Source: Bacteroidales bacterium (GTDB lineage Bacteria; Bacteroidota; Bacteroidia; Bacteroidales; UBA932). Taken from it: 41,895 nucleotides of DNA. The stretch spans positions 1 to 41,895 of the forward strand of contig JAFRVZ010000057.1 of NCBI GenBank assembly GCA_017438265.1. The letters run 5' to 3'. The position numbers were made by a program, and so were the translations under genes. The notes under the pieces were generated by a model. That model was not told where the DNA came from. It ran no database searches and was given only the letters and a program-made list of their open reading frames with translations. Below, piece after piece: positions 16,231 through 25,165 of the stretch. Numbering within the stretch: the stretch's first letter is position 1; the number at the start of each line of letters is the position of its first letter.

Positions 16231-17334
16231 CTATTCCGTGTAATTGTGGTCGACGGTGACGAGGATGGCGGGGCCGGGGATGAGGGCGGTGAGTTCGCGG
16301 GTCAGGGACGCGCGGAGGGCGTCCTCGTCGCGGACGGAGAGGTCGGGGACGACGTCGACGGTCAGGAGGTTCTCCTTTTCGGAGAAGTAGAAGCCGTGGA
16401 TCTGGACGAGCTCGCGGTGGGCGGTCAGGGTGCGCATCACGAGGGTCTGGAGGTCTTTCCGCTGGTTGTCGCCGGTCGCGACGGCATAGACGCCGAGGGT
16501 CAGGATGATGCCGTGGTCGCGGAACATCCGGAGCGAGATCTTGCGCGAGAGGCCGTGGATGTCCTGGGCGGTCAGGGTGTCGTCGACGCTGATGTGGGCG
16601 GAGCCGATCATCACGTCGGGGCCGTAGCTGTGGAGGATGACGTCGTAGACGCCGTGGACCTCGTCGTATTCCATCATTTCCCGCTTCAGGGTTGCGACCA
16701 GTTCCGGGGAAACGCGTGAACCCAGCAGTTCGCCGACGGGCGAGGCGAGCATCCCGATGCCGGCCTTGATGATGAGGAGCGAGATGAGGGTGCCGAGGAT
16801 GCCGTCCAGGGAGACGCCCCAGAGCAGCATCACGCCGGCGGAGACGAGCGTCGCCAGCGTAATCACGGCGTCGAAGAGCGCGTCGGAACCGGAGGCGACG
16901 AGCGCGTCGCTGTCCAGCTTCGTTCCCTGGCGCTTCACGTATGCGCCCAGCACGAGTTTGGCGACAATCGCCACGCCGACGACGATGAGCGTGGCCGCCG
17001 TGTAGTCCGGCTGCGTCGGGGCGAAGATCTTCCTGACCGACTCGACGAGCGAGGTCACGCCGGCGGAGATGACGATCACGGCGATGACGATGGCGCTGAA
17101 GTACTCGACGCGGCCGTAGCCGAAGGGGTGCTCGCGGTCCGCGGGACGCCGGGAGAGTTTCGTGCCGATGATGGTGATGACGCTCGAAAGCGCGTCGCTG
17201 AGGTTGTTGACGGCGTCCATCACGATGGCGATGCTGCCGGAGACGATGCCCACGAGGGCTTTGAAGGCGGCCAGGAGGACATTGGCGGCGATGCCGATGA
17301 CGCTGGTGCGGATGATCTGTGCGCTGCGGTCCAT
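16231..17334 (-). CDS. Cation diffusion facilitator family transporter
   Basis: 367 residues of the CDF family, which exports divalent metals (Zn, Fe, Mn, Co) from the cytoplasm using proton antiport. About six membrane segments lie in residues 10-210. Metal-site motifs are MDAVNNLSDALSS (Asp40, Asp47) in helix 2 and the SDALVASGSDALFD segment in helix 5. A cytoplasmic C-terminal domain (about 220-367) contains HSYGPDVMIGSAHI, usual for the dimerising metal sensor of this family. The extended length comes from a longer C-terminal tail. Divergent from the SO_0444 permease, suggesting joint metal homeostasis. A -7 box lies only 3 nt before the ATG. Confidence 0.93.
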   Translation of the reverse strand: MDRSAQIIRTSVIGIAANVLLAAFKALVGIVSGSIAIVMDAVNNLSDALSSVITIIGTKLSRRPADREHPFGYGRVEYFSAIVIAVIVISAGVTSLVESVRKIFAPTQPDYTAATLIVVGVAIVAKLVLGAYVKRQGTKLDSDALVASGSDALFDAVITLATLVSAGVMLLWGVSLDGILGTLISLLIIKAGIGMLASPVGELLGSRVSPELVATLKREMMEYDEVHGVYDVILHSYGPDVMIGSAHISVDDTLTAQDIHGLSRKISLRMFRDHGIILTLGVYAVATGDNQRKDLQTLVMRTLTAHRELVQIHGFYFSEKENLLTVDVVPDLSVRDEDALRASLTRELTALIPGPAILVTVDHNYTE

Positions 17335-17337
17335 GCT

Positions 17338-17346
17338 GCAAAGATA
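17338..17346 (-). promoter_or_regulatory. -7 box for the CDF transporter gene
   Basis: TATCTTTGC on the minus strand, a full match to TAnnTTTGC. Only three bases separate it from the ATG, so the transcript would be leaderless or nearly so. No TTG at -33. Confidence 0.55.
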
Positions 17347-17382
17347 ACCATTTGTAGTGATATGCCGCTCCCGAAAAAACCG

Positions 17383-17391
17383 TATCTTTGC
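17383..17391 (+). promoter_or_regulatory. -7 box for the SO_0444-type permease gene
   Basis: TATCTTTGC, identical to the box of the divergent CDF gene, seven bases before the ATG. The two boxes are 36 bp apart and point away from each other. No TTG at -33, so an activator or weak basal use is possible. Confidence 0.55.
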
Positions 17392-17398
17392 TCCCGTT

Positions 17399-18637
17399 AT
17401 GCGTACCTATCTGTTATCCCTGCTGAATGTCGTCTGCGAGATGGGGCCCTATCTGCTGCTGGGCTTCCTGATCGCGGGACTGTTGCACGTCTTCGTGCCG
17501 CAGGGCTTCTATTCGAAATACCTGTCGAAAGACAACCGCTGGGCCGTCCTCTATGCGGCCCTGCTGGGGATTCCGCTGCCGCTGTGCTCCTGCGGGGTGA
17601 TCCCGACGGCCATCGGCCTGCGGCGGGAGAACGCCTCCAAGGGCGCCGTCGCCTCCTTCCTGATCGCGACGCCCCAGACCGGCATCGACTCCATCCTCGC
17701 GACCTATTCGCTGCTCGGCCTCGGTTTCGCCGTCGTCCGGCCGGTCGCGGCGCTGGTCACCGGCATCTGCGGCGGCCTGCTGGTCAACCGCTTCGTGCCG
17801 GAGGACGATGCACCGGGCGCCGCCGCCGGCAGTTGTCCGGTCGAGACCGGAAACCGCCTCTGGCGCGCGCTGAAGTATGCCTATTTCACGCTGATGCAGG
17901 ACATCGGCGGGCGCCTGCTCGTCGGTCTGCTGCTGGCTGCCCTGATCCAGGTCGCCGTGCCGGACGACTTCTTCCTGCACTTCGGGAAGCAGCCGCTGCT
18001 GCAGATGCTCGTAATCCTGCTCGTCGCGGTTCCGATGTACATCTGCTCGACGGGCAGCATCCCCGTGGCGATGGCCCTGATGATGAAGGGCCTGTCGCCG
18101 GGCGCCGCGCTCGTGATGCTGATGGCCGGCCCGGCCGTGAACCTGGCCTCCATCCTGGTCGTCCGGAAGTCCCTGGGGCGCCGGTTCACCTGGATCTACC
18201 TGCTGACCATTGTCGGCTTCTCCGTCCTGTTCGGGCTGCTCGTCAATGCCGTCGGGCTGGGCATCCCCGCGATGCACGGAGACCACGGCCACGTCCACGG
18301 CGAGGCGCTGCCGGGCACCTTCAAGCTCGTCTGCGCGGCCGTCCTGGTCCTGCTGCTGGCGTTCTCCCTGCTGGCGCGGCTGCTCGGGGGACATACCCAT
18401 TCCCACGACGCGCTGCCGGCGGAGCCGGATGCGACCGTCTACTGCGTGGACGGGATGAACTGCAGCCACTGCGAGGCCGCCGTCGCCGGCGCCGTCGGGG
18501 AGATTCCCGGCGTGACGTCCGCCCGGGCCAGCGCCGCTGCGGGCCGGCTGACCGTCCGGGGGACCGCCGACGACGAGGCGGTCCGCGCCGCCGTCGAGAA
18601 GGCCGGATTCAAGTTCCGGGGCCGGGAACAGCGCTAG
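17399..18637 (+). CDS. SO_0444 family Cu/Zn efflux permease with C-terminal HMA domain
   Basis: 412 residues. Two blocks of membrane helices form an ArsP-like permease (PF03773 type), with CSCGVIP (Cys63, Cys65) in the first half and ICSTGSIP (Cys216) in the second, the usual pseudo-repeat of this family. His-rich stretches follow (HGDHGHVHGE near 294-302 and GGHTHSHD near 330-337). The protein ends with a heavy-metal-associated domain containing DGMNCSHCEAAV (Cys355, Cys358). The family is linked to copper or zinc efflux. I chose the ATG at 17399; the upstream extension would run through the promoter box. Its TAG stop shares the CTAG tetranucleotide with the convergent SGNH gene. Confidence 0.9.
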   Translation: MRTYLLSLLNVVCEMGPYLLLGFLIAGLLHVFVPQGFYSKYLSKDNRWAVLYAALLGIPLPLCSCGVIPTAIGLRRENASKGAVASFLIATPQTGIDSILATYSLLGLGFAVVRPVAALVTGICGGLLVNRFVPEDDAPGAAAGSCPVETGNRLWRALKYAYFTLMQDIGGRLLVGLLLAALIQVAVPDDFFLHFGKQPLLQMLVILLVAVPMYICSTGSIPVAMALMMKGLSPGAALVMLMAGPAVNLASILVVRKSLGRRFTWIYLLTIVGFSVLFGLLVNAVGLGIPAMHGDHGHVHGEALPGTFKLVCAAVLVLLLAFSLLARLLGGHTHSHDALPAEPDATVYCVDGMNCSHCEAAVAGAVGEIPGVTSARASAAAGRLTVRGTADDEAVRAAVEKAGFKFRGREQR

Positions 18638-20249: not shown

Positions 20250-21086
20250 TTATCCCAGGCTTTCCATCCGCGTCGCGGTGGCGTCCCAGAGGATGCCGTC
20301 GAGACGCGGATGGTCGTATCGCGGCGGGATGGGGCGGCTTCCCTTCCCGACGAAATAACGGAAACGTTCCGGGGATGCAAGTGCGCCCAGGGCGGGCCGT
20401 GCGCCCTTTTCCGGCGATTTGCAGAGGGGCTTGAAGAGGAGGTCGGACAGCGGGTCGAACCAGCGGCCGAGGTTGATCATCCCGGAGGCGACGATGCCGG
20501 GGTCGGAAACGTTTACGCGGAGGCGGGGCTGGCGGCGCGCCAGTTCCAGGGAGAACGAAAGGAGGGCGCGTTTGCCCGCGGCGTAGATGCCGAGCTGGCA
20601 GAAGTCCGCCGCTTCCGGCTGCAGGAAACGGGAGAGCTCCTCCCGTTCCGCAGGGATGGAGGCGAAGCGGCAGGCCAGCGAAACCATGTTCACGATGGCG
20701 CCGCCGTCGGGAATCTTGTTCGCCAGCAGGGTCGTGAGCAGCCAGGGGCCGTAGTAGTTGACGGCGAAGGAGCTTTCCAGGCCGTCGGGGGTCAGGGCGT
20801 AGCCGCGGGGGATGACGCCGGCGTTGTTGAAGAGGGCGGAGACGCTGCCGGGCGCGATGCCGTCCGCGAAGCGGCGGACGGAGGCGGCCGAGGCAAGGTC
20901 CAGGTCGCGGATGTCCAGCGCGGCGCCGGGGTGGCGGGCGAGGATCGCGCTGCGCAGCGTCTCCGCCTTGGCGCGGTTGCGGCAGGCCAGGACGACGGGC
21001 GTACCCCGGGCCGCCAGCGCCGCGACGGCCGCCGATCCGATCGCCCCCGTCGCGCCGGTGATGATGACAGGCCCGCTTATTTCCAT
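20250..21086 (-). CDS. SDR family dehydrogenase, last gene of the steroid-reductase-like block
   Basis: 278 residues of the short-chain dehydrogenase/reductase family. NAD(P) site TGATGAIG (10-17), NNAG at 87-90, catalytic Ser136 (NMVSLA), Tyr168 and Lys172 (IYAAGK). The layout, with a longer substrate loop before the Tyr, resembles retinol-dehydrogenase or protochlorophyllide-reductase-like SDRs. Given its neighbours (a 5-alpha-reductase family protein and an ene-reductase), I infer a hydroxysteroid dehydrogenase or similar ketone/alcohol interconversion on a lipid substrate, but sequence alone does not show the position or stereochemistry. Its ATG lies 10 bp inside the upstream gene. The frame is open far upstream, but that part is antisense-like shadow of the neighbour. 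Confidence 0.85.
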   Translation of the reverse strand: MEISGPVIITGATGAIGSAAVAALAARGTPVVLACRNRAKAETLRSAILARHPGAALDIRDLDLASAASVRRFADGIAPGSVSALFNNAGVIPRGYALTPDGLESSFAVNYYGPWLLTTLLANKIPDGGAIVNMVSLACRFASIPAEREELSRFLQPEAADFCQLGIYAAGKRALLSFSLELARRQPRLRVNVSDPGIVASGMINLGRWFDPLSDLLFKPLCKSPEKGARPALGALASPERFRYFVGKGSRPIPPRYDHPRLDGILWDATATRMESLG

Positions 21087-22324
21087 CGCTTTTCCGCTTG
21101 CGCGACCTCGCGGCGCAGCCGGTCCGGGAGTTGCGCGACGCAATGGTTGCATTTCATTTCCAGCGTGTACATGCGGCCGATGCAGTAATTCGAATGGCCG
21201 CAGTCGCTGCAGGTCACCTCGCCGCTCCGGAGCCTGTTGACGAAGTCCGTGTCGCGCACCAGCGCGCGGGCCATCTGGAGCCCCTGGAAGCCGGCCGCCA
21301 GGACGGTTTCCATGCCCTGCAGCGAGACGAGTCCGCCGACGTAGATCAGCGGCAGGGAGACCGCGGCGCGGAATTCCTTCGCATCTTCCAGGAAATAATC
21401 CTCCCGGTAAGGGACGGTCGGCACCATGAGGCGCCCGAAAATGCGGAGCAGGACCTTCAGCCACCAGAACTTGCGCGGGTCCATATAGTAGGCCATCGTG
21501 CGCAGCGGCATCGCTCCGCGCATCACTTCCATCGGCGCCTTGCTCACGAATCCGGCGGAAAGGACCAGGGCGTGCACGCCCAGCCGCTCCAGCTCGCGCG
21601 CCACCGCCAGGCATTCTTCCCGCTGCATGCCGCGGCGGAAGCCGTCGTGCATGTTCATCTTCACGACGACGGCCAGGTCGTCTCCGGCGTGCTCCAGCAC
21701 GCAGCGGATGACACGCTGCATCAGCCGCATCCGGTTCGCGAGGCTCCCGCCATACGCGTCGCGCCGGTGGTTGGTATACGGGGACAGGAACTGGCTGATC
21801 AGGTAGCCGTGGCCGGCGTGGATCTCGACGCAGTCGAAGCCCGCTTTCCGGGCCAGGTCCACCGCCCGGCCGAAATCTTCCACCAGCGCGTCGATCTCCG
21901 GAACGCTCATCCGCCGGACGAAGGTGGGCGAGTAGAGGTTGAATCCGCGGGAGGCGCCGACCGGCGTGCACCCGCAGGTCGCGCGGTGGGTCATGTTGCC
22001 GCAATGGCCCAGCTGGATGGCGCATTTCGCACCTTCGGCATGGACGGCGTCGGTGATGCGCTTCAGGCCGGGAACGATCTCTTCCCGCATCCAGAGCTGG
22101 CCGTCGAAGGACAGGCCGCTGCGGCAGACGGAGGCGTAGGCGAGGGTCGTCATCCCGACCCCGCCGCGGGCGACGGCGACGTGGTAGTCATAGAGGTCCT
22201 GCGACGGCGCGTTCCCGTAGGCCATGTTCTCGAAGGCAGCCGAGCGGATGACGCGGTTGCGCAGGGTGACGGGCCCGAGGGTGACCGGGGTGAAAACCGG
22301 GGATGTGATCTGTTTGTCAGCCAT
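21077..22324 (-). CDS. NADH:flavin oxidoreductase, old-yellow-enzyme family ene-reductase
   Basis: 415 residues with one FMN-binding TIM barrel. Family features: PVTLRNRVIRSA near the N-terminus, CAIQLGHCG (101-109), VEIHAGHGYLISQFLSP (166-182), YGGSLANRMR (191-200), and phosphate-binding VGGL plus ALVRD near 329-357. A Cys cluster follows (Cys372, 375, 381, 392, 395), resembling the Fe-S site of the 2,4-dienoyl-CoA reductase and BaiCD/BaiH group, but the FAD/NAD(P)H domain that normally follows in those about 650-residue proteins is missing. Enzymes of this class reduce activated C=C bonds, including the delta4 bond of 3-oxo steroids to 5-beta products. Here a 5-beta-reductase role is inferred from the adjacent 5-alpha-reductase family gene. 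Confidence 0.88.
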   Translation of the reverse strand: MADKQITSPVFTPVTLGPVTLRNRVIRSAAFENMAYGNAPSQDLYDYHVAVARGGVGMTTLAYASVCRSGLSFDGQLWMREEIVPGLKRITDAVHAEGAKCAIQLGHCGNMTHRATCGCTPVGASRGFNLYSPTFVRRMSVPEIDALVEDFGRAVDLARKAGFDCVEIHAGHGYLISQFLSPYTNHRRDAYGGSLANRMRLMQRVIRCVLEHAGDDLAVVVKMNMHDGFRRGMQREECLAVARELERLGVHALVLSAGFVSKAPMEVMRGAMPLRTMAYYMDPRKFWWLKVLLRIFGRLMVPTVPYREDYFLEDAKEFRAAVSLPLIYVGGLVSLQGMETVLAAGFQGLQMARALVRDTDFVNRLRSGEVTCSDCGHSNYCIGRMYTLEMKCNHCVAQLPDRLRREVAQAEKRWK

Positions 22325-22325
22325 A

Positions 22326-23105
22326 TCAGTAGATGAACGGGAGGATGCGTTTGACCTTGCGGGAGTCCAGCTCCCCGGGGAATTCCCGCCGGTACAGTCC
22401 GTGGATATGCGCCGCGCGCGGACCGAGGTTGGCGAACGTCCAGAGGGCGAAGACCGCGCCGGCCCGGGACCAGGTCAGGACGGCGAAGCCCACCCACTCC
22501 AGCCATTCCCCGAAGTAATTGGCGCTGGTGACATAGCGGAACATCCCGCCGCGGGGCAGGTAGTGGGCGGTGTCGCCCGGCTTCCGCAGGTTGCGGATGA
22601 TGTTGTCGGATTCGATGTTGATGTACATCCCGGCGAGGAACAGTGCGGTTCCGGCGAGGAAGGGGACGCTCCGCAGCCAGGAGACGGGATAGCGGTCCGC
22701 GGGGGAGACGTAGAAAATCCATCCGCCCTGGATCAGCGCGTTGAGGGTGTTGAAGAGGGCCCCCATCACGACGATGGACCAGGGCATCCGGCTGTGGCCG
22801 CGCAGCCGCTGCGGGAAGATGAAGGAACGGTGGAAGTAGTGGAGTTCGAACAGCGCCAGGAAGACCAGGCGGACGGGATCGGTCCGGCGTTCCGAGAACC
22901 ACCAGAGCACGAGCATCCCGGCAAAGACCGGGATTTCCATCAGGAACCAGCCCCGGTGGTTGTCCAGGGTCGGCCCCCACTTCGGGTTGTAGAACTTCCC
23001 GTACCCGGCATCCACCAGATACAGGGCGGCGAACACGAAGACGGACAGGACGGCCATCACGGCAAGCAGGGTGTTGAAAGCGGAAGGATTGTTTATCAGG
23101 GTCAT
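22326..23105 (-). CDS. Steroid 5-alpha-reductase (SRD5A) family membrane protein
   Basis: 259 residues, about seven hydrophobic segments. The match to the 3-oxo-5-alpha-steroid 4-dehydrogenase family is strong: FLMEIPVF (Glu57), LHYFHRSFIFP (Tyr90), then a conserved C-terminal part with GMFRYVTSANYFGEWLEW, NLGPRAAHIHGLYRREFP and a terminal ILPFIY. By motif, Glu57 and Tyr90 correspond to the catalytic Glu57 and Tyr91 of human SRD5A2, and the NYFGE segment to its NADPH-binding part. The family uses NADPH to reduce the delta4 double bond of 3-oxo steroids with 5-alpha stereochemistry. It overlaps the upstream SDR by 4 bp (ATGA) and precedes the OYE gene by 1 bp. Substrate (bile acid, hormone or dietary sterol) cannot be told from sequence. 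Confidence 0.9.
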   Translation of the reverse strand: MTLINNPSAFNTLLAVMAVLSVFVFAALYLVDAGYGKFYNPKWGPTLDNHRGWFLMEIPVFAGMLVLWWFSERRTDPVRLVFLALFELHYFHRSFIFPQRLRGHSRMPWSIVVMGALFNTLNALIQGGWIFYVSPADRYPVSWLRSVPFLAGTALFLAGMYINIESDNIIRNLRKPGDTAHYLPRGGMFRYVTSANYFGEWLEWVGFAVLTWSRAGAVFALWTFANLGPRAAHIHGLYRREFPGELDSRKVKRILPFIY

Positions 23106-23869
23106 TTCAGTTTTTTCCAGAGTGCGGCGATGACAAAGCCCGGCAGCAGGGCGATCAGCCGGGGGAAATAGACGTTCATGAAGGACGGACTGATCACGCG
23201 GCGGCCGCGGAACAGGGCCCGCAGGGTGCGACGGACCAGCCAGCGCGGCGTGCGGATCAGCCCCACGGCGACGCCGAGGCGCATTTTCTTTTCGCTCAGC
23301 CGGTAGAGCGGCGTCGCGACGGCCGCCGGGCAGAGGGTCGTGACGCCGACGCCGGCGGGTTTCAGTTCATACGAAAGCGACCGCCCGAAACTCCGCAGGT
23401 AGGCTTTCGAGGCGGAATAGACGGTGATTCCCGGCACCGGGATGCGCGCCGCCATCGAGGATACGATCAGCAGCCGGCCCGAACCGCGGCGCTTCATCGC
23501 CGCGCCGAACAGCAGGCAGCAGCGGGTGACGGTTGTGACGTGGAGGTTCAGCATCGCCTGGACACGGGGAAGGTCTTCCGGCGTCAGTTCCTTGAAGAAG
23601 AACATCCCGGCGTTGTTCACGAGCACATCGGGCAGGATGCCGCGCTCTCCGGTGCACCAGGCGTACAGGCGGTCGGCGGCATCCGGCTCCGCGAGGTCCT
23701 GGAAGTGCGTGGTGACGGCGACGGGATACTGCGCCGCCAGTTCCGTCCGGGCGGCGGCGAGCTCCTCCGCCCGGTTGCCGACCAGGATCAGGTCGTAGCC
23801 GCGCGCAGCGAGCTGCCGCGCGAATTCCAGCCCCAGTCCGGAGCTCCCGCCGGTAATCAGCGCCGTCAT
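23102..23869 (-). CDS. SDR family dehydrogenase, first gene of the steroid-reductase-like block
   Basis: 255 residues, classical SDR. NAD(P) site ITGGSSGLG (about 5-13), NNAG at 85-88, Ser137/138 (VSSMA), Tyr151 and Lys155 (YSASK). The hydrophobic and basic C-terminal tail (FPRLIALLPGFVIAALWKKLK region) suggests membrane association, as in 17-beta-hydroxysteroid dehydrogenase type 12-like and DltE-like SDRs. With the 5-alpha-reductase family gene following by a 4-bp overlap, a 3-alpha/3-beta or other hydroxysteroid dehydrogenase is a reasonable inference; a fatty-acyl or other lipid ketone is the alternative. mnmA ends only 3 bp upstream, so there is no space for its own promoter in the gap. 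Confidence 0.86.
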   Translation of the reverse strand: MTALITGGSSGLGLEFARQLAARGYDLILVGNRAEELAAARTELAAQYPVAVTTHFQDLAEPDAADRLYAWCTGERGILPDVLVNNAGMFFFKELTPEDLPRVQAMLNLHVTTVTRCCLLFGAAMKRRGSGRLLIVSSMAARIPVPGITVYSASKAYLRSFGRSLSYELKPAGVGVTTLCPAAVATPLYRLSEKKMRLGVAVGLIRTPRWLVRRTLRALFRGRRVISPSFMNVYFPRLIALLPGFVIAALWKKLK

Positions 23870-23872
23870 GGC

Positions 23873-25165
23873 TTACCGGGCGATCACGCCGGAGCCGGTC
23901 AGCTCGGCGTCGTTTTCGTACCAGGCGGCGAACTGGCCCGCGGTGATGCTCCGCTGCGGCCGGTCGAAGAAGAGGTAGAGGCCCGCGTCGCGCCGCAGCA
24001 GGACGGCGTCCTGGAGGGGCTGGCGGTAGCGGATGCGGGCGCGGACGCGGCGGGATTCCCCCGGCTGCAGGGCGCGGTCCGGACGGATCCAGTGGATCTC
24101 TTCCGGATCGATCCGCAGGCAGCTGCGGAAGAGGCCGCGGTGGGAGGCGCCCTCGCCGACGTAGATGCGGTTCGCGGCGATGTCGGTCGCGAGGACGAAG
24201 ACGGGCTCGCGATGGCCGCCGATGCCGAGGCCCTTGCGCTGGCCGACGGTCACGAACTGCGCGCCGTCGTGGGTTCCGATGATCTTCGCGAAGGGGTGCT
24301 CCTTGTAGCGGGTCTTTTTCTGGTGGTGGTTGCGGGAGCGGTAGGTCTCCGTCTCGAAGACGATGTCCCCGTAGCGGAGCGGCTCCGCGAGCGTTTCGAG
24401 CTGCGCGTCGTCCAGGGCCGCGGGATTGCTGCAGCCCTGCAGGATCGCCTGCTGCTCCCGCCAGGGGGCGCAGGCGTCGTAGTAGCGGTCGAAGACCTCG
24501 ACGACCGGGCCTTCGGCGGGCTTGAGCTGCTGCTGGAGGAAGACCGGCAGGTCGACCTTGCCGACGAAGCAGATGCCCTGGGAGTCCTTCCTGTCGGCGC
24601 TGGGGAGGTCGGCCTCGGCCGCCAGGCGGCGCACTTCGGGCTTGGTCAGCTCCCCGACGGGGAACAGCGCCGCGGCGAGCTGTTCCTGGGTCAGCTGGCA
24701 GAGGAAGTAGCTCTGGTCCTTGTTGCCGTCCACGCCGGCCAGCAGGCGGTAGACCGGCCCGTCCGGGCCCGGGACCACGTCCTTGCGGCAGTAATGGCCG
24801 GTCGCGACGAGGTCCGCGCCCATGTTCCGGGCGGCTTCGAGGAAGGCGTCGAACTTGATTTCGCGGTTGCAGAGCACGTCCGGGTTGGGCGTGCGGCCCT
24901 TCGCGTACTCGTCGAACATATAGTCTACCACGCGCGCGCGGTAGGTCTTGCTCAGGTCCACGAAGTAGAAGGGAATCCCGATCTTGCGGGCGACGAGTTC
25001 CGCGACGAAGCGTTCTTCCTCCCACTCGCAGTCACCGTGGAGCGTCCCTTCGGTGTCGTGCCAGTTCTGCATGAACATCGCGAAGACATCGTGGCCCTGC
25101 CGCTTCAGCAGCAGCGCCGCGACGCTGGAGTCCACGCCTCCCGAGAGTCCGACACAAATCTTCAT
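23873..25165 (-). CDS. mnmA: tRNA-specific 2-thiouridylase
   Basis: 430 residues; makes 2-thiouridine at the wobble position of tRNA for Lys, Glu and Gln. The PP-loop is LSGGVDSS (7-14), the first catalytic Cys is Cys99 in VLCNREIKF, and the second lies in SQGICFVGK. About 60-80 extra residues lie between the PP-loop domain and the central domain (the region CAPWREQQAILQGCS to RSRNHHQKKTRYKEHP), making the protein longer than the usual roughly 360; this insertion is common in Bacteroidota. The C-terminal beta-barrel ends ITAGQFAAWYEND. It follows cdd by 3 bp and precedes the SDR by 3 bp. Confidence 0.93.
   Translation of the reverse strand: MKICVGLSGGVDSSVAALLLKRQGHDVFAMFMQNWHDTEGTLHGDCEWEEERFVAELVARKIGIPFYFVDLSKTYRARVVDYMFDEYAKGRTPNPDVLCNREIKFDAFLEAARNMGADLVATGHYCRKDVVPGPDGPVYRLLAGVDGNKDQSYFLCQLTQEQLAAALFPVGELTKPEVRRLAAEADLPSADRKDSQGICFVGKVDLPVFLQQQLKPAEGPVVEVFDRYYDACAPWREQQAILQGCSNPAALDDAQLETLAEPLRYGDIVFETETYRSRNHHQKKTRYKEHPFAKIIGTHDGAQFVTVGQRKGLGIGGHREPVFVLATDIAANRIYVGEGASHRGLFRSCLRIDPEEIHWIRPDRALQPGESRRVRARIRYRQPLQDAVLLRRDAGLYLFFDRPQRSITAGQFAAWYENDAELTGSGVIAR

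Follow-up and report, generated by a model that had tools for sequence, protein, structure and literature searches.

Contig JAFRVZ010000057.1 of a Bacteroidales bacterium (UBA932 in the GTDB lineage; assembly GCA_017438265.1), a stretch of 41,895 nucleotides hereafter called the window, carries on its minus strand a compact cassette of four genes whose products may act together on ring A of steroids. In the direction of transcription, these genes encode a classical short-chain dehydrogenase (SDR) of 255 amino acids (SDR1, positions 23102–23869), which is a candidate hydroxysteroid dehydrogenase (HSDH), an SRD5A-type 5-alpha-reductase of 259 amino acids (5AR, 22326–23105), a single-barrel flavin ene-reductase of 415 amino acids from the old yellow enzyme family (OYE, 21077–22324), which is a candidate 5-beta-reductase or delta4-dehydrogenase, and a second, protochlorophyllide-reductase-like SDR of 278 amino acids (SDR2, 20250–21086). 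There is an overlap of 4 bp between SDR1 and 5AR and one of 10 bp between OYE and SDR2, and a single base pair separates 5AR from OYE. The initial annotation of this locus described four minus-strand genes overlapping or lying within 1 bp of each other, and both its coordinates and its gene calls hold, while the enzyme classes that it assigned (SDR, SRD5A-type, OYE, and SDR) are upheld by Pfam matches. An open frame at 20250–22025 was rejected as a single gene, the start of SDR2 being the ATG at 21086.

Judged from its profile and structure matches, 5AR is a genuine SRD5A-family protein. It matches the Steroid_dh profile (PF02544) at 139.6 bits (cut-off 22.6), being the one PF02544 gene in this genome of 1.74 Mb (75 contigs, of which the window is contig C31; 88% complete), and its nearest solved structures are 7c83 (167.8 bits, E 2.8e-48), which we take to be a bacterial SRD5A-type enzyme, and human SRD5A2 (7bw1; 154.8 bits, E 2.6e-44), both aligned over nearly the full length. 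The catalytic Glu and Tyr of these 3-oxo-5-alpha-steroid 4-dehydrogenases are present, since Glu57 and Tyr90 align with both structures; both residues are invariant among the relatives (121 of 121), a count that, like those over 110 and 98 rows given below, holds duplicates because some loci represent the same gene twice (e.g., L085 and L122, from one genome). Two other identities were rejected on their scores, namely a DUF1295 protein (PF06966, 25.9 bits against 139.6 for PF02544) and an enoyl-CoA reductase (22of, 29.3 bits, where 7c83 reaches 167.8), so that kinship with either family is not borne out and the earlier assignment to the SRD5A family, with Glu57 and Tyr90, stands. The window protein differs from the solved enzymes in sharing an operon with an ene-reductase partner.

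OYE matches Oxidored_FMN (PF00724) at 175.1 bits and consists of an FMN barrel, with the motif HAGHGY at residues 169–174, and a Cys-rich tail. Its best NCBIfam models are mycofactocin OYE-2 (198.4 bits, cut-off 793) and BaiCD (NF041087; 174.8 bits, cut-off 825), the latter being covered only at positions 4–257 of 642, so that the protein falls short of both the curated score and the multi-domain length. An FMN-type barrel with a Cys-rich segment behind it is also found in BaiCD and in the steroid 5-beta-reductase ci2350 of Clostridium innocuum, another member of the OYE family; unlike these, the window OYE is only 415 amino acids long, scores far below the BaiCD cut-off, and has no FAD/NAD half, as judged by length and profile match. 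Among its 13 Cys residues, Cys108 and three in the tail (375, 381, and 392) are invariant in 98 of 98 relatives, while position 395 is Cys in 74 and position 372 in 29. The tail spacing, C-x5-C-x10-C, contrasts with the FadH-type C-x2-C-x3-C-x11-C, which was partly read from the 1ps9 alignment; with just Cys108 and three tail Cys invariant, the protein may or may not hold an iron–sulfur cluster.

Both SDRs match adh_short, SDR1 at 131.9 bits and SDR2 at 72.0 bits. SDR1 contains the nucleotide-binding motif TGGSSGLG and a hydrophobic tail recognized by eye, together with Ser137, Ser138, Tyr151, and Lys155, each conserved in 97% or more of 71 rows. SDR2 is nearest to NCBIfam PRK06197 and PDB 3rd5 and contains Ser136, Tyr168, and Lys172, its motif residues being conserved in 97% or more of 57 rows; the ACRN that follows its second strand presumably points to NADPH. 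The PDB neighbours of the two SDRs do not indicate a substrate.

Conservation and types of the cassette

A genome scan with 5AR yielded 335 relatives, the best 80 of which (loci L022–L101) were examined over up to 6 kb on each side of the 5AR gene; because contig ends truncate some of these loci, gene counts among them are lower bounds. OYE is present in 79 of the 80 loci, on the 5AR strand, SDR1 in 69, and SDR2 in 55; 50 loci carry all four genes on the same strand, which indicates that the cluster is not a chance arrangement. Gene order varies, the commonest being 5AR–OYE–SDR1–PCMD–SDR2 (16 loci), while the order of the window, without PCMD, is found in 8, and the flanks of the cassette differ among relatives. 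In the genus of the window, 12 of 19 genomes in the family sample have both 5AR and OYE and 7 have neither; OYE was also present in all of 10 further genomes chosen for having 5AR.

The PCMD-domain gene (PF13201) accompanies the cassette in 43 of the 80 loci, of which 37 have form 1 and 6 have form 2 (e.g., L043:8736-9662, L048:8811-9560, and equivalents). Both forms start with a signal-peptide-like segment, recognized by eye, and they match PF13201 at 78.8 and 106.9 bits. In the genome of the window, PCMD was matched neither by a profile search, in which the controls matched nowhere either, nor by a protein search whose query found PCMD in three of four relatives. To our knowledge, no function has been assigned to this domain, and binding of steroids or steroid glycosides is a testable idea. 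In 4 of the 80 loci (L041, L042, L047, and L048), PCMD form 2 is followed by a DUF1295-like membrane protein, recognized by eye, which is perhaps a further reductase.

A tree of 66 of 122 5AR proteins, built by a quick method in which 32 of 63 inner branches have support below 80, separates 54 gut-type from 12 sister (environmental) proteins with an SH-aLRT of 100, the two labels being those of this analysis. OYE adjoins 105 of 110 gut-type 5AR genes (in 6 of the 105, OYE is cut by a contig end), the remainder being L062, L109, L113, L120, and L142, versus none of the 12 sister genes (L123–L134). Six of these 12 are instead preceded by an extended SDR, recognized by eye. When two of these SDRs were scanned, Epimerase was the best match (119.0 and 115.5 bits), followed by 3Beta_HSD (103.9 and 87.9 bits), in keeping with 3-hydroxy/3-oxo steroid chemistry in the family at large. 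Three sister loci also have START or polyketide-cyclase-type lipid-binding proteins nearby.

Within the gut clade, we call window-type those 5AR proteins with at least 65% identity to that of the window, a cut of our own. Outside this type, the cassette is often the 5AR–OYE pair only: among 20 family regions, one of them window-type, 17 contained OYE and 6 an SDR match. SDR content was rejected as a clean mark of the window type, with SDR matches in 5 of 19 other-type regions from the family and in 5 of 7 from the order (L136–L142), and PCMD matches also occur in L108 and L137. Genomes with a 5AR, counting that of the window and those with weak matches, number 83 of 199 in the family, 96 of 393 in the order, and 10 of 395 in the phylum, a patchy presence that points to an accessory trait; 5AR has already been reported in most Bacteroidetes isolates from chicken caecum (PMC6069880). 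The nearest named isolate is Phocaeicola massiliensis, with 5AR–OYE–SDR at 58, 62, and 32% identity. The record concerned (L102, OY726067.1) is labelled a plasmid and its gene table holds one feature; isocitrate-dehydrogenase-like and citrate-synthase-like genes, recognized by eye, precede 5AR–OYE–SDR, and the record may be a chromosomal contig.

Probable substrates of the cassette

Sato et al. (2021) reportedly described the isoallo-bile-acid gene set of Parabacteroides merdae and others. A Bacteroidota cluster that combines a 5AR with a predicted 3-beta-HSDH and a BaiCD-like NADH:flavin oxidoreductase is reported to make allo bile acids, and P. merdae with a disrupted 5AR to yield no allo products (PMC10382948). 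Likened by gene class, the window shares with this set the SRD5A-type 5AR, the flavin oxidoreductase, and an HSDH-type enzyme, so that the initial reading of the locus as a gut Bacteroidales steroid cluster with a second SDR added is sustained in this respect. The enzyme set itself is thus already known from gut Bacteroidota; what is new, and differs from the described set, is its occurrence in a ruminant-stomach-rich branch, usually with two SDRs and often with PCMD, in which a strong bile-salt-hydrolase match is found in one of 80 genomes.

Because of the analogy with the described cluster, ring A of 3-oxo-delta4 steroids is the expected target, and we infer activity, direction, stereochemistry, cofactor, and substrate as follows. 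The cassette would reduce ring A, probably at the expense of NADPH. The membrane 5AR would hydrogenate the C4–C5 bond to give the 5-alpha (flat) product, while the flavoenzyme OYE would form the 5-beta (bent) product from the same bond or, in reverse, regenerate the delta4 bond. The two SDRs would interconvert 3-keto and 3-hydroxy groups, and one of them may open the path by oxidizing a 3-hydroxyl. Substrates plausibly met in the forestomach are plant sterols and saponin aglycones.

The record titles of the 80 nearest of the 335 relatives, copied by hand, place the window copy in a branch of the gut Bacteroidota cassette that is rich in ruminant-stomach genomes: 37 name the rumen, reticulum, or omasum, 21 carry the labels RUG or RUI, which we take to be rumen genome series, 3 name the abomasum, and 4 name deer or reindeer with no compartment. 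These stomachs lie ahead of the entry of bile, which makes plant steroids more probable targets than bile acids.

A strong match to choloylglycine hydrolase (PF02275, CBAH; E at most 1e-40, and near full length except in genome G154) was used as a proxy for life with bile, leaving uncounted the weaker matches, which mostly cover half of the profile and occur in many window-type genomes. Among the 199 family genomes, strong CBAH was found in none of the 18 carriers of a window-type 5AR, in 45 of the 65 carriers of another 5AR, and in 7 of the 116 genomes with no 5AR; with relatedness ignored, Fisher P is 4e-8 for window-type versus other 5AR and 1e-19 for other 5AR versus none. No strong match was found in the genome of the window itself. 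Within genus g1 (genus groups were read by eye), the contrast is 10 of 10 for the other type versus 0 of 2 for the window type (P 0.015). Across the 80 genomes behind the examined loci, which partly overlap the 199, one has a strong match and 44 others have weak matches only. The single genome (L091) has a near full-length choloylglycine hydrolase match and a record title that names no ruminant compartment. The contrast, confounded though it is by relatedness, lends support to a bile-acid role for the other 5AR type and withdraws it from the window type. Bile acids, the substrate that the initial annotation suggested by likeness to isoallo-bile-acid producers, are thus poorly supported for this copy, whose relatives come mostly from ruminant stomachs.

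Chemistry of the expected kind takes place in ruminants. Tigogenin is a 5-alpha compound and smilagenin a 5-beta one, a pair that corresponds to the products expected from 5AR plus a 5-beta-reductase. Sheep are reported to form smilagenone, smilagenin, epismilagenin, and tigogenin (PMC10385484), and in the rumen, protodioscin is reported to be hydrolysed to diosgenin, which is then saturated and epimerized to epismilagenin (PMC5535167). Rumen enzymes for these steps are not named in the titles or abstract openings of the literature searched. In our best explanation, to which we assign a probability of about 0.5, the cassette would serve 3-oxo-delta4 steroids, with plant sterols or saponin-derived sapogenins as likelier natural substrates than bile acids.

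Several points weigh against this explanation. Relatedness is a real confounder of the CBAH contrast, which shrinks when counted by genus (CBAH majority in 7 of 11 genera for the other type versus 0 of 3 for the window type, P 0.19), and strong CBAH is mostly missing from the other 5AR type as well in genus g16 (1 of 5 versus 0 of 8). As for residues separating the two types, none passed the cut for 5AR and five did for OYE, and, with so few, the substrate ranges of the types may be alike. The habitat of the window is taken from that of its relatives, 15 of whose 80 titles are uninformative; moreover, genes counted as absent could have been missed in a genome that is 88% complete. The cluster contains no recognized saponin glycosidase or delta5-isomerase, and sapogenin epimerization is also reported in the caecum and colon (PMC10385484).

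The alternative that survives best, although we regard it as rather unlikely, is that the window encodes the same isoallo-bile-acid pathway as P. merdae, in which OYE would convert a 3-oxo-5-beta bile acid into the delta4 compound, 5AR would reduce this to the 5-alpha form, and an SDR would produce the 3-beta-hydroxyl. The clustering of the same gene classes (PMC10382948), the 5AR–OYE–SDR set of P. massiliensis, and the association of strong CBAH with the other 5AR type (45 of 65 versus 7 of 116), from which the window type is separated by few residues, all speak for it, whereas the lack of strong CBAH in the 18 window-type family genomes, its presence in only one of the 80 genomes named above, and the origin of window-type genomes largely in stomach samples ahead of the bile duct speak against it.

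It is distinctly improbable that the substrates are cholesterol-derived or hormone steroids of the host, protozoa, or fungi, with cholestenone, for instance, being turned into coprostanone and cholestanone. Conversion of cholesterol via 4-cholestenone to coprostanone is reported as shown to be possible for Bacteroidales by Bacteroides sp. D8 (PMC12667688), and a gut OYE is reported to reduce progesterone; however, the OYE 5-beta-reductase clade in question is described as mainly from Bacillota (PMC12238238), and the OYE of the window is a short protein whose 174.8 bits fall far under the 825 required for BaiCD. Very improbable, finally, is a role for an endogenous lipid (sphingoid base, polyprenol, or sulfonolipid) in which SDR1 would be an enzyme of the 3-ketosphinganine reductase type. 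In its favour, SDR1 belongs to the classical SDRs and has a hydrophobic tail, recognized by eye, and Bacteroides BT_0972 is reported to be an SDR with 3-ketosphinganine reductase activity that needed detergent, but BT_0972 is estimated to be essential (PMC9278070), whereas 5AR is patchy (12 of 19 genomes even in the genus) and closely paired with an ene-reductase, so that a BT_0972-type identity of SDR1 is not favoured.

Neighbouring genes and possible spread

The gene mnmA, encoding a tRNA 2-thiouridylase (23873–25165, minus strand; NF001138, 391 bits), lies 3 bp upstream of SDR1 on the same strand, with a cytidine deaminase (CDA) gene 3 bp before it. It is perhaps co-transcribed with the cassette and is not counted in the steroid function; a functional link is not favoured, with no mnmA match in loci L022–L101. 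In seven mnmA regions of 12.5–13 kb, a CDA match accompanies mnmA in all seven and a FAD-oxidoreductase match in four, and none of the steroid cassette genes was found there, four of the seven genomes having 5AR elsewhere. Elsewhere in the window, at 16231–18637, a CDF cation efflux protein (minus strand) stands back to back with an SO_0444-type Cu/Zn efflux permease (plus strand) that carries an HMA domain at its C-terminus, likely forming a metal-efflux pair.

The window OYE has 80–86% identity to that of seven genomes of genus groups g15 and g16, versus 58–61% to that of ten congeners and 78% to that of congener G129. The N-terminal part of MnmA, in turn, has 76–82% identity to that of 17 congeners and 76–79% to that of the same seven genomes, while MnmA of congener G157 has 65% identity over its full length. 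Because OYE is closer to other genera than to most congeners and MnmA is not, horizontal spread of the cassette is hinted at, although these identities are suggestive only.

Possible meaning for forestomach Bacteroidales

A bolder form of the plant-steroid explanation, possible though doubtful, is that forestomach Bacteroidales carry a dedicated plant-steroid cassette, made up of 5AR, a single-barrel OYE, two SDRs, and often PCMD, that performs the long-known saturation and epimerization of sapogenins and phytosterols in the rumen, and that it diverged from the bile-acid version found in their bile-salt-hydrolase-bearing relatives. Rumen sapogenin chemistry is implicated in hepatogenous photosensitization of grazing animals and, if plant steroids are indeed the substrate, the cassette would provide candidate genes and bacteria for the saturation and epimerization of saponin aglycones and plant sterols in the rumen. 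There would then be a foregut plant-steroid cassette distinct from the bile-acid cassette, and 5AR would not be a bile-acid gene everywhere; genomes with the other, bile-acid type of 5AR may be cheaply recognized by their bile-salt-hydrolase gene.

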